DNA of 21,177 nucleotides from assembly GCA_943704525.1 (NCBI GenBank), contig CALSCQ010000191.1:1-21177 (forward strand), written 5' to 3'. A program made the translations under genes and the position numbers. Below the pieces are notes generated by a model. That model was not told the DNA's origin. It did no database searches and saw nothing but the letters and a program-made list of their open reading frames with translations. The DNA is from Pigoraptor vietnamica (Eukaryota; Opisthokonta; Filasterea). This document shows positions 1,292 to 8,900 of the stretch, piece by piece. Numbering within the stretch: position 1 is the stretch's first letter; each line of letters starts with the position of its first letter.

Positions 1292-4200
1292 CTACTTTGG
1301 CGGGTAACGCGGCTGGGTTCCTCGCTTTCGCTGCTCGTCGCTCATGTCGAGAAACACCTTCGCGAGGTTGCGCGCATATGCGTCAGCGTCCACCAGCGGC
1401 GGTCTCTTCGCGACGGCGTCCTTCAGCAGTCCCTTGAGTTTCGCCGCGAGCGACCCCTCCTTCCTGCCCCCAAGGCCCAAGCGCACGGCATTCGCAACGT
1501 ACTCCCTCGCAGTGTCAACGATGAGGTCGGCGAGCCCAAATTCGGCATCGGAAGACCCCTGGTTGCCCTTTTTGGGCGCGGTCCCGAGTGGCGCGCCAAT
1601 CAGCGACTTGAGGATGCTCGACGCCGTCCGTCCCCACCTAAATTGGTGCCTCTGCGTGAGCACCAACAGCCCCCGCGGCGCCTGCGTGAGGTGAAGAAAG
1701 GATTAGAGAGGCGGCGTGCGCTACACGTGGGAATAGACGTGAGGGACGCGCATGGCACAGTGCATTAGAGGGACGCTGGCAGCTGGCGACACGAGGGAGT
1801 CGGCGTGAAGAGCATCTGCGCACGGCACCCACCATTTCCGCGACGGTCGTTCGTGCGCTGATGGGGTGCGTGTCGAGAAAGAGGTCACACGCGGACGGCG
1901 CAGTCGCGAGAAACTTGTCGTGGGGCATCCGTGGCCGAACGATCACCCTGTTCGTGACGTTTCGCTCGGCCGCCGCGAGCCGCAGGTTCGATTCTGGGAG
2001 AGACCAATGCGGGGAGGAGGTGAGATGAGCCGGGCCCTCAGTAGAAACCAATGATTGCACGGGTGCGCTTGTGTACGGCACAAACAAACGTCCCTTCACG
2101 GGCAAGACAGCGTGCGCATGCGAGCGTCTGCGTGTCTGCGGCGCACCTGCGACTGCGTTGCTCGCGACAATCCACAGCGTGCTCTTGGGCACACGCCGAA
2201 GGATCTCAACCCATCGATCGAACAAGTCCGGACTGATCTTGCCAGCCTATTTTGCGTTAAACATGAGCACATGCACCTAGTCACAGAGAGGCGACAGCAC
2301 GGCTGCGAACGTGACGTGCAGCACATTCAACCGCAACACACATCCATGTGACAACGTACCCCGGCGAGGCTGCAGTACACGAAGTCGCCGGGTATGTTGA
2401 GGTGCTCGGCCGCAGGGAGCGCGTCCTTGCCATCTAGCTCGCACGGGTGCGGACAGATGTAGGGCGAGTGCGGGAGGTAGTGGAACCGATGACGCCCCTC
2501 CTTCACCTCGGGGTCCGACGGGGGGCAGATTTCGCGGTCGCATATCGTGGCGTCGATTGTGGCGGCGTGCGAGGGCATGCAACTGGGGAACGACACCTGC
2601 ACAAAAACTGTACTTAGATGGCGGCCGCATCGAGAGAAAAATGTATGTGCGTGCGTGCGTGCGTGCGTTCATGTGCCGGTGTGTGCCTCACATACGTGTG
2701 CACGTGGCCGTCTTGGACACACAGATTGAACGGACGGAGTGACACAATCGGCAAGGGCGCGCACCTGCACCGGCGCCAGGCGATAGCTGAAGGGGCCGTG
2801 GCCTCGCAGTGACTTGTCCGGCGCCACGTCCACAAGTATCTCGATTTGGTCCTTCGAGAGCATCTGCGCAAACTTGAGGAGGGGGTACGCGTTGACCCTG
2901 CGGAACGTCATCAGCGGAGTGCCCTGCGCGGCATGCGAAGTCGCGTGAGAGTGGATAATGGAGCGACCTCTTCACTGGCATGCGTGTGGATGAAAGCAGA
3001 CACACCATGTATGCACACACCACACAGAGGCACGCGTTCACACATACTAGCTCCAGCACGCAGCACTACCACCCACCTCCACCTGGCTGTCGATGTCGCT
3101 TGCCAGCCTGCGAAATTCCATCGTTATCGCGTCGCTCGTTGACCCGGTCGCATAAAACACAGGCATCACCACGCTCGCACCGCGCGGCCCATTCAGCAGT
3201 GCCTGGCGCGCCGCACGCACGAGTGCCCTCGCAATACGGAGCATCGCGCGGCCAGTGCTTCCGCCGACAAGGTCGCCGCTCACAAACCCAACGCGCACAA
3301 ACGGGGACCACCGCCCGTCGTCCCCCTTGAGCCCGGGGAAGGGAAGTCCCACCAGGGAGCGTTGTCTGGATTCGAAATAGGGGTCGTCCACTGTCTCGTA
3401 GCGCTTCGAAGCCAGGAAGATGTCGGCGGGCGTGACGTCACCGACGAAACGATAGGGAGGCAAGCAGAGGGTCGCCTTTGTGCCATTCTGCACGTGTGCG
3501 TAGTTCCGCAGTACAGTGGCCATCGTGCGCGTGTCCTGCGCACTTTCTGACCAGTCGCAGGTTTCACGGCGCGCAATCACCGCCACGCAACCGGCGCTTT
3601 CGGCGAGAGCCTTCCCAATGCCCAAGAGCACGTTCGCCGACGCAAGGGCATCCGCATAGAGCCCAAGAATGAATGCTGCGCCATTCGCGAGCATCTTATG
3701 AGTCAAATGTGCGGCGTGCAGTTTTTACAATAGTATGAGTGTCTGTGTGTGTGTGTGTGCGTGTGCGTGCATGTGCGTGTGTGTGCGCGTGCGTGTGCGT
3801 GTGCGAGCGAGTGAGCGTGTGTATGAGTGTGTGAATGTGTGTGTGTGCGCGTGCGTGTGCATGTGTGCGTGTGCATGTACGTGGGTGTGTGCGTTTGCGT
3901 GTGTGCCTGTGTGTGGGCGTGTGTGTGGGCGTGTGCGTGTGTGCGTGTGTATGTGTGTGTGTGTGCGTGTGCGTGTGTGAGCGAGTGAGCGTGTGTATGA
4001 GTATTTGAATATGTGTGTGCGTGTGCGTGTGCGTGTGCATGTGTGCTGTGCGTGTGAGCGCGTGTGTTCATATGTGTGTGCGTGTATATGTGTGTGTGTG
4101 TGCGCGGGCATGGGCGTGTGTGCGTGTGTGTGTGTGCGTGGGCATGGGCGTGTGTGTGTGTGTGCGCGCGCTGTGTGTGTGTGTGTGTATGTGTGTATGT

Positions 4201-5901: not shown

Positions 5902-8900
5902 TCATGCTACACAGATCCACACACCTGACCCTCCTAGCAGCACGCGCGCCCGCCTGCCGCGCGCCTGCATTTTCAGCAGGTGGACGAAATTCCTCGCGAA
6001 TGCATTCGCGTCGACCACCGGAGGACCGCTCTCCGCAGCGAGCCGCAATTCCGTCCTCAGTTGCATCACGAGCGATTCCTTCCACCGTCCATCGCTCCCA
6101 ATCATCACCGCGATCTTGGCATAGTCATCCGCAGTATCCACGATGAGGTCAACGGCAGAAAGGCCACCGCGGGACGAGGCTGTCCGGCCGGCTTTGGGCC
6201 CTTCCCTATCACGTGACGCGCCGACGAGAGACTCGAGGAAAGAGGAAGACACGCGACCGCTGCGATGGCCGCTGCGCCAGATCACCATGGGCAAACCGCG
6301 GGGAAGCTGCGCGCGGCCGCGGGTGTTACTGGGTGCATGAGAGTGGGAACAAGAGCAGGAGTGGGCGCGACATTTTACCAGACGAACGGCCTCTCAGACG
6401 CAAATTGGCACTGCGAAACCGCGCCCATTGCACGCACCATTTCGGCGGCAGTTGTTCGCGCGCTCACGGGATGCGTGTCGAGAAACAGGTCGCACACGTT
6501 CGGCGCTGTTGAGAGAAACTTATCGCGGGCCAAGGGCGGCCGAACCATCACCCTGCCTTCCACGCCCCTCTTCGCCGCCTCCAGCCGCAAGTTCGTCTCT
6601 GCGAGAGATGTCGGAGTGACGAGAGATTACATGGCGGCACGCAGGGTAGCCGACCCTCTCCCTCCCAACACCCTTACACCAGCGGGAAGTGCCAGAGACG
6701 CCGCAGCGCACACCCACCCGCCCACTCGTTGCGCGCGATGACCCACAGGACGCTGTCGGGAACGGCCTTGAGAATGCGCGCCCAGAGGTCAAACAGCTCG
6801 GGCGAAATCTTGTCAGACTGCACACAGCGCACGCACATTAGAGAGGGGCCGCGGCGGTTGTCTCGCAGCCGCACGATAGTCGCAAGAATGCAATGCACAA
6901 CACACCCTTTCCCAACAACTCGCACGCATTGGATGACGTCACCCTTGCCACCTATACTGTCTGCATGCGCACACTGTTCAAGCACGCACCCCCCCCCCCC
7001 CCCCCCCCCCCCCTTTTTTTTTCTTTCCGGACGAAACACACTCGCTCACATTCGCACTCACACGTACACACACATCAAACGCACCTTGGCCAGGCTGCAG
7101 TAGACGAACGTGTCCTTCGAAGCCCCAAACATCTGATGGCGCTTCAGTGCCGTCTCTATGGGATCGGCGTGGCTGCTGACGTCGCACGGGTGCGGACACA
7201 GGAAACTCGAGTGCGGCAACAGCGCTGTTTTCTCCGATGGAACGCCCGGAGCGATCGGGCACATCTCGTCGTCGCAAATGGTGAAGTTGTGGGCCGAAAC
7301 GTGCGTGCGCGACGTCAGCTGGAAGGTGGCCTGCGCGTTTGGCGGAATGTTGCGGCAAGGTGCGATTTGACACGCGGCGAACCGACGCAGACACTCATGA
7401 CACCGAGGACACACAGCGTTCAACACCATCAAATGCAAGTTACATGCACACACACACTCTCACCACACACTCATGCACACACACTCTCAACACACACACA
7501 CATGCACACACAGACACATGCACACACACATGCAAACACGCACACATACACACACACACACACACATGCACACACACACAAACACACACACTCACACACG
7601 CATACACCCGCAATCAGAATCGCGCTCCAACACATGCGCGCAAACCTGCAAGGGCGCCACAGAGTGCGCAAACACGCCCATGGCGGTCGGGGACGCCTCA
7701 AATGACTTGACATCGTCCATGTTGATAAGGATTTCAATCTGGTCCTCAATGACCCTCCGCGCAAACGCAAGCGCCGATTGCCCCGCCATCGACGCGAACG
7801 AGTAGAGCCGCGTTCCCTGCAGTTCACACAGCGCGCTTCGAATTAAGACACCGGACGCAATACAATGCACGCACTGTTTCACGTTGTTACGTGCACGGTA
7901 ACAAGAAGCAATGTCCATGCAAGCGGGCCATCACAGGGCGACAGAAAGTGCGTCGGCGGATAATCACACTGAGAGATGTGCTTGTCCCACAACAATCGTT
8001 TGCCTTATGTGCAACACGAGGAGGGACGCAAGGCACACACACACACACGCACAAACACGGCACAAACACACATACAAACAGACTAACAACAAGAAATTAC
8101 ACGCGCACATGATTCGGACGCCCATCTCACCTTGTACTCGCTCCCGGGCGACTTGGCGAGGCGGCGCAGCGTCCGAGAGTAAGCGTCTTCCGCTGTCCCC
8201 GTGTAGTACAGCGTCAACATCACCACGAGCCCCTCGGCGGCCTCCTCCTCTTCGCGCGCCAGCATATCGGCACGGGCAGCGCGCACAATTGCCTGCGCCA
8301 GACGGACCATCATGTGCCCAGTGGGCCGGTCGCAAAAGGCGCTGCTGACCATCCCCACACGCACGAAGGGGACCCACTCGCCGTCAGCCCCCCGGAAGGT
8401 CGGCCGCGGCAGGGCGGCGACGACATTCGGGCGCGTGGGATCGCGGATGTCCGTGAAACGAACGGCGTAGCGGGCAAGTGCGTCCGGAGTCACAAACGGC
8501 TCGAAGTGGGACGGATGCCCGCAGTAATAGTAGTGATCGGGGCGGGCCTTCCACTCCTCAACGGTTGCGGACGCCTTTGATGCCTCATGGACCATGCGCG
8601 CACCGTCTGCGTCGCGCTGGGACCAGTCGCACGTGGCCTGGCGCACAGCGACGAGCACGCACTCTTGCTTGCTCATCTCGACGGTCGTCTTGGCGCGCTC
8701 GATCGCCTCGCGCGCAATGGACGCCGCGACGTCGAATCGATTCAAAAAGTATGCTGCAAAAGCGATGAGAAAGGTGAGCGCGCGCTAGTAATGACTGGCC
8801 TGCTCACGTGAGCAAGACAACGGCCTTGTCCTTATTGTGTGTATGTGATACATACATATATATATATATGTATATATGTATGTATGTATGTATGTACGTA

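Follow-up and report, generated by a model that had tools for sequence, protein, structure and literature searches.

The window analysed here, the entire 21,177-nucleotide contig CALSCQ010000191.1 of Pigoraptor vietnamica (C70 below), carries on its minus strand a predicted gene (10658-1292) with two tandem glycosyltransferase family 41 (GT41) modules, each preceded by a TPR-like region. The two modules are very likely halves of one gene and not two paralogs, and both lack His558, Asn838 and the sugar-binding loop, losses which are probably ancestral and predate the tandem duplication. We put at about 0.5 the probability that the product is a lumenal or secreted double pseudo-GT41 protein, possibly able to bind a nucleotide diphosphate, which would not transfer sugars but serve as a partner or sensor.

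Gene model and family membership

The predicted gene has 20 exons and encodes 1542 amino acids, with all phases consistent and GT..AG at 19/19 introns (Table 1); the splice sites were picked by hand, partly guided by homology. The predicted product begins with a signal-peptide-like sequence, followed by a TPR-like region, GT41 module N (W_N), a linker, a second TPR-like region and GT41 module C (W_C). In a preliminary description of this DNA, module N was called GT-B and module C GT-A, and the span given there (1833..8753) covers both GT41 modules, but omits exons 1-4 and the last exon (1681-1292). The introns contain long CA, CT and poly-G repeats, for example at 3700-4340, 5420-5540, 9640-9830 and 10140-10440, and the presence of introns and long CA/CT repeats gives the window a eukaryotic character. 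The Pfam GT41 profile PF13844 (cut-off 25) matched W_N (E 6.4e-25, 87.8 bits) and W_C (1.2e-13, 50.7 bits), as well as the paralog C1037 (164.7 bits), while a profile built from W_N, W_C, C1037 and the C-module of C315 (C315_C) matched human OGT at 1.5e-38 and Arabidopsis SPINDLY (AtSPY) at 1.6e-20. Searches of the P. vietnamica genome (32.5 Mb in 1395 contigs) with PF13844, two window exons and a bacterial GT41 sequence gave only C70, C315, C1037 and C100 among the matches listed, the searches being exon-wise and thus able to miss a gene.

Probable single gene with two modules

The preliminary description treated the modules as two paralogs, which is argued against by the in-phase join at exons 11-12 and by the same tandem layout in C315, where part of module N, the linker and module C follow each other as in the window. 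Between C315 and the window, phases of exons 8-20 are equal in 13/13 cases and lengths in 6/13, and the equal lengths include the four consecutive exons at the junction (exons 9-12, with 161, 382, 79 and 110 nucleotides). Across exons 11 and 12, 63 residues align gap-free, with 25 identical.

Two separate adjoining genes, which we consider improbable, would require translation to end at the TGA after exon 11 and to start anew, for module C, at an ATG in exon 12. The frame of exon 11 does run directly into a TGA at both loci (next to KFA in the window and to its counterpart RFM in C315), and there is an in-frame ATG in window exon 12. However, at each of the two loci this TGA forms part of a GTGAGT splice donor and exon 12 can be joined in frame, exons 9-12 agree in length and phase with an ungapped alignment over the join, and the nearest in-frame ATG 5' of exon 12 in C315 is 114 codons away, across a CA repeat.

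Active-site residues and their conservation in bacterial GT41 domains

Residues were placed by a HMMER alignment to the human OGT chain 3pe3 (index + 308 gives the ncOGT numbering, confirmed by hand at K842 and H920), which puts those listed in the preliminary description in register. The motifs named there are all present: CDRPT and VGGST (Table 1), ARTTAAE (within 6464-6441), ARTTVAE (within 1859-1836), and in both modules DKFL, of which the Phe aligns with His901. The LGYPGT-type loop is indeed replaced, by 13 residues within 7648-7286 in W_N and 13 within 2767-2552 in W_C, each across an intron, and Lys842 of KIS(P) and the Thr-Thr pair are retained in both modules. The histidine of GNHPT had been numbered His498, but is OGT His558, with His498 itself located in VHPHHSM. 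The window modules thus have R/G at 558, no LGY loop (QL-/PS- at its position), A at 838, F at 901, R at 920 and E at 925; the G and T of the GYT motif are lost in both, and Asp554 in module N only. With regard to GT41 competence, His558 and the LGY sugar-binding loop are missing from both modules, while Lys842 and the Thr-Thr pair are there in both, and two of the residues characteristic of SPY are also missing, with V/I at the Tyr744 position and T at the Ala731 position.

The study PMC9715652 equates SPY L439, D491, H495 and A664 with OGT H498, D554, H558 and Y841, and describes AtSPY as an active enzyme with Leu439 at the His498 position; in the same work H495A and H495F are dead, possibly through a structural effect, K665 is essential, and the donor phosphate is thought to serve as base. 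On that numbering K665 adjoins A664 and is therefore the Lys842 equivalent. PMC10027727 reports that E752A abolishes SPY activity, and assigns Tyr744 to fucose and Ala731/Lys689 to guanosine; judging from role and spacing, Glu752 presumably has the role of Asp925. TtOGT has Cys422 at position 920 according to PMC4683255, and PMC9715652 states that its transfer activity was not detected.

We compared these positions in 34 near-full bacterial GT41 domains, taken from 30 loci for the best-scoring matches (66/150 genomes matched) and from the loci of two other searches. This set leans towards canonical domains, three of its rows are one gene (L013, L021, L022) and one row (the first domain of L023) is truncated; counts over 31 domains omit L021, L022 and the truncated L023 domain, whereas the cysteine count over 32 rows omits L021 and L022 only. 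His558 is H in 34/34 domains, Asp554 is D in 33, Leu653 is L and Gly654 is G in 33 each (both together in 32), and Lys842 is K in 33, while His920 is H in 28, His901 is H in 24 and Asp925 is D in 24. Asn838 is N in 31/31 bacterial domains and in C1037, and is A, A, T, T and A in the five degenerate modules of the P. vietnamica genome (two in C70, two in C315 and one in C100); at position 558, the three degenerate modules which extend over it have R, G and S. The loss of hallmark histidines described previously therefore stands for His558, together with the loop, but His920, His901 and Asp925 vary among GT41 domains and are weak evidence; as proof of inactivity these three were ruled out because of their variability among the surveyed domains.

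Of the 55 columns in which at least 93% of the 31 bacterial domains have one residue, C1037 retains 39, W_N 27, W_C 25 and C315_C 24. For the 22 N-lobe columns these numbers are 17, 8, 9 and 8, and for the 33 C-lobe columns 22, 19, 16 and 16, respectively. A scan of prokaryote genomes with the C1037/W_N alignment matched 80 stretches, but just two distant bacterial loci, and a single scan of viral contigs gave 52 pattern matches with no relatives among them. Several bacterial open frames of ~2200-3800 amino acids have multiple GT41 matches each (G106:C92, G066:C17/C29, G130:C153 and others), and represent tandem multi-GT41 proteins.

Paralogs and ancestry of the losses

C1037 encodes a single module, which keeps His558, an LGYCGTTG loop, Asn838, Lys842 and His920. 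The fourth GT41-family locus, C100 (L020 6081-7621), has a C-module (C100_C) with Val for His920 and Ala for Thr921, and ~5 kb of N upstream. Ala at Thr921 is also found in the N-module of C315 (C315_N), which has Arg at the Lys842 position in an exon of uncertain splicing (L010 9332-9218, using an acceptor not used by its homologues), while C315_C and C100_C keep Lys842. A tree built from the C-terminal half (37 rows by 180 columns, bacterial outgroup) unites the two N-modules (100/96) and, separately, the three C-modules (100/96), with all five degenerate modules in a single clade (97/91) next to C1037. The separate grouping of N-modules and C-modules suggests that the double gene was probably duplicated as one unit.

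The earlier suggestion of a divergent subfamily agrees well with this tree, in which the five degenerate modules seen in the genome fall into a single clade next to a paralog of canonical appearance, but that of parallel loss in both copies does not. The loop is lost, with a gap at Tyr655, in 5/5 degenerate modules, and Arg920 is present in 4/5 (Val in C100), which makes a single ancestral loss before the tandem duplication the simpler explanation; parallel loss was rejected on account of the tree and of the loop deletion common to these modules, and the losses are probably ancestral.

Selection on the degenerate modules

The C-module is under purifying selection. The ratio of nonsynonymous to synonymous substitution rates (dN/dS) between W_C and C100 is 0.30 over 258 codons (dS 0.77; 0.17-0.42 by exon), while five older pairs gave less reliable values of 0.28-0.52 at dS 1.2-1.6. 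For the N-module, the only degenerate pair (W_N and part of C315_N) has a dN/dS of 0.30 at dS 1.22. The value of 0.30 with C100 argues against pseudogenes, although a value below 0.5 is compatible with recent decay of one copy, and the window gene is open through its 20 exons with canonical splice sites throughout. A decaying pseudogene family would account for the loss of many invariant residues, for the more degenerate state of C100, whose exon 8 seems by eye to be without the expected splice donor, and for exon 8 of the C315 N-module being readable only with the unusual acceptor, but taken together we regard such decay as highly improbable.

Predicted compartment, cysteines and a GH84 gene

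Both the window protein and C1037 have a hydrophobic 13-mer near the N-terminus after basic residues (mean hydropathy 2.26 and 2.21, respectively), and in each protein CP....G[DN]Y (CPTAVRGNY in C1037) and a phase-2 intron come next. Six cysteine columns are common to every module of the genome that covers them, with Cys in none (five columns) or one (one column) of the 32 bacterial rows; the Cys of CDW, which is present in OGT, and the Cys of YCS, which is found in 16/32 bacterial rows, were not counted as family-specific.

No cytosolic OGT or SPY was found among the matches listed in the exon-wise searches of the genome, in which a gene may have been missed. GH84, the O-GlcNAcase family, gave one match in the genome (C229:25731-26465 on the plus strand, L059, E 1.2e-19), in a frame whose start is hydrophobic and signal-peptide-like and whose C-terminal end also looks hydrophobic by eye. 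This frame retains the catalytic Asp-Asp in an LLFDD which aligns with that of the O-GlcNAcase chain 11lj_A, a solved structure (phmmer E 0.0011). It is conceivable, albeit unlikely, that these genes form a lumenal or extracellular O-GlcNAc-type system, with C1037 as writer, the double-headed pseudo-GT41 proteins of C70, C315 and perhaps C100 as readers or co-factors, and the C229 GH84 protein as eraser, in an organism with no nucleocytoplasmic OGT or SPY; this would amount to a wholesale transfer of the GT41 family to the secretory pathway.

Proposed function and the case for an active enzyme

In the mechanism which we propose, the predicted protein would enter the secretory pathway and may be stabilised by family-specific disulfides, its C-lobes could still hold a nucleotide diphosphate, and neither module would transfer a sugar. 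The TPR and pseudo-active-site surfaces would instead act as partner, chaperone or nucleotide-sugar sensor for C1037. The compartment, the nucleotide binding, the absence of catalysis and the partnership with C1037 are all inferred from sequence features. The preliminary description had offered either another sugar donor or a non-catalytic role; sequence cannot settle this choice, but the non-catalytic side is favoured by the loss of His558, Asn838, the G and T of GYT and the sugar-binding loop, and by residue 558 being different in each of the three modules covering it.

The serious rival, which we see as possible but somewhat unlikely, is an active tandem transferase whose donor or acceptor has changed. 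The diphosphate would then be held by Lys842, the Thr-Thr oxyanion hole and Glu925, all retained in both window modules, catalysis would be substrate-assisted without a protein base, and the new loop and Arg920 would bind a different, perhaps acidic, sugar. SPY, active with Leu in place of His498 and presumably using the phosphate of the donor as its base, gives a precedent, as does TtOGT with Cys422 for His920, though its transfer activity went undetected in the source cited above. The new loop is also much alike in W_C and C100 (75.9% identity in exon 17), Arg920 recurs in 4/5 degenerate modules, and the purifying selection fits an enzyme as well. Against this, His558 is H in all 34 bacterial domains and the corresponding SPY histidine is required for activity (perhaps because of a structural role), the loop differs between W_N, W_C and C315_C as does residue 558, and Asn838 is lost in 5/5 degenerate modules.

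Several observations weigh against the one-gene, non-catalytic and secreted double pseudo-GT41 protein favoured here. The retained Lys842, Thr-Thr and Glu925 leave catalysis possible in both window modules, and Arg920 could be a new ligand contact rather than decay. The excess of N-lobe losses, counted only over columns that C1037 retains, is significant for W_N (Fisher p 0.005) but not for W_C (0.21) or C315_C (0.11), and W_C is therefore degenerate more broadly. C1037, the presumed partner, itself has Tyr at 901, Thr at 904, Ile at 917 and Glu at 925, unlike OGT, and thus its activity is not assured. Pfam support for TPRs in the window modules consists of one sub-threshold TPR_2 match in W_C (E 0.0018, 18.7 bits, cut-off 27), with none in W_N and clear TPRs in C1037. 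The signal peptide was judged by hydropathy alone; averaged over 19 residues, hydropathy in the window protein peaks not at the leader but at 994-1010, so the leader is short. Finally, with splice sites chosen by hand and guided by homology, the phase agreement between C315 and the window is not fully independent, and C315 exon 8 fits only with that acceptor unused by its homologues.

The well-studied GT41 proteins of eukaryotes, OGT and SPY, work in the nucleus and cytosol. If our interpretation is correct, a secreted tandem degenerate GT41 protein alongside a canonical-looking paralog with a signal peptide would mean that the family has been re-used in another compartment. Such natural variants may separate nucleotide binding, in the better kept C-lobe, from sugar and acceptor handling, in the eroded N-lobe. 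For calling a GT41 domain inactive, His558, Asn838 and the LGY loop are better guides than His498, His901 or His920.

Exons and neighbouring genes

Table 1. Exons of the predicted tandem GT41 gene in the window (nt, nucleotides).
Feature	Coordinates	Strand	Characteristics
Exon 1	10483..10658	-	Start Met; signal-peptide-like N-terminus: basic RRIAARRAR, hydrophobic 13-mer, then CPGVDDGDY
Exon 2	9858..9961	-	TPR-like region, module N; no Pfam TPR match
Exon 3	9254..9522	-	TPR-like region, module N; no Pfam TPR match
Exon 4	9016..9124	-	TPR-like region, module N; no Pfam TPR match
Exon 5	8131..8753	-	Module N N-lobe; CDRPT (8334-8320), Arg at OGT His558 position
Exon 6	7646..7816	-	Module N N-lobe; NMDDVKS for NMNGYTK motif
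Exon 7	7085..7330	-	Replaced LGYPGT loop; family-specific Cys motif CDDEMC...CPHPC
Exon 8	6718..6817	-	Lys842 equivalent retained (DKISP)
Exon 9	6438..6598	-	DKFL; ARTTAAE (His920 to Arg, Asp925 to Glu); C315 homologue also 161 nt
Exon 10	5925..6306	-	C-terminal part of module N; C315 homologue also 382 nt
Exon 11	5586..5664	-	Linker; apparent TGA stop within donor GC|GTGAGT; C315 homologue 79 nt, equal phases
Exon 12	5226..5335	-	TPR-like region, module C; sub-threshold TPR_2 match; C315 homologue 110 nt, equal phases
Exon 13	4676..4998	-	TPR-like region, module C
Exon 14	4340..4469	-	TPR-like region, module C
Exon 15	3077..3675	-	Module C N-lobe; VGGST (3268-3254), Gly at His558 position
Exon 16	2765..2923	-	Module C N-lobe; DVAPDKS for NMNGYTK motif
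Exon 17	2360..2596	-	Replaced loop; CDREIC...CPHPC; 75.9% identity to C100 copy over 79 codons
Exon 18	2147..2246	-	Lys842 equivalent retained (GKISP)
Exon 19	1833..1993	-	DKFL and ARTTVAE
Exon 20	1292..1681	-	Module C, C-terminal part; stop codon

Elsewhere in the window, the plus strand has enoyl-CoA hydratase and 3-hydroxyacyl-CoA dehydrogenase domains at 11976-15212, perhaps belonging to one multifunctional beta-oxidation gene with introns, and an inosine-uridine nucleoside hydrolase domain (PF01156) at 17412-17894.

Comparison with known systems

A literature search at the level of titles, which does not show absence from print, found no title on secretory or tandem degenerate GT41 proteins. 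Human OGT (GT41; PDB 3pe3 and others) combines TPRs with GT41 catalytic lobes, comparable to the TPR-like regions and lobes of the window protein, with Lys842 and the Thr-Thr pair in register, but has one module, is nucleocytoplasmic, and has His558, LGYPGT, Asn838, His920 and Asp925, whereas the window protein has two modules and a signal-peptide-like exon and is without these residues. According to PMC4683255, human OGT also has a long insert between the lobes, unlike the window protein. Arabidopsis SPINDLY, a GT41 O-fucosyltransferase (PDB 7y4i, 8dtf) described as nucleocytoplasmic in PMC10027727, resembles the window modules in having an acidic Glu that presumably takes the Asp925 role, but the window modules are without Tyr744 (V/I), the equivalent of the essential H495 and the sugar-binding loop.

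Among bacterial GT41 proteins (TtOGT, XcOGT), several GT41 matches per open frame also occur, as in the 3781-amino-acid frame of G106:C92, and thus tandem GT41 as such exists in bacteria. The surveyed bacterial domains differ from the window modules in having His558 (34/34), both L and G of LGY (32/34) and Asn838 (31/31), and the family-specific cysteines in none or one of 32 rows. In the same genome, C1037 shares with the window gene its exon phases, a signal-peptide-like beginning and the Cys motif, but has a single module and keeps His558, the loop, Asn838, Lys842 and His920. Finally, Cosmc (C1GALT1C1) is an inactive lumenal relative of a glycosyltransferase which serves as the partner of that enzyme, and although it belongs to an unrelated family and is an analogy for mechanism only, it is in this manner that the window protein might act on C1037.

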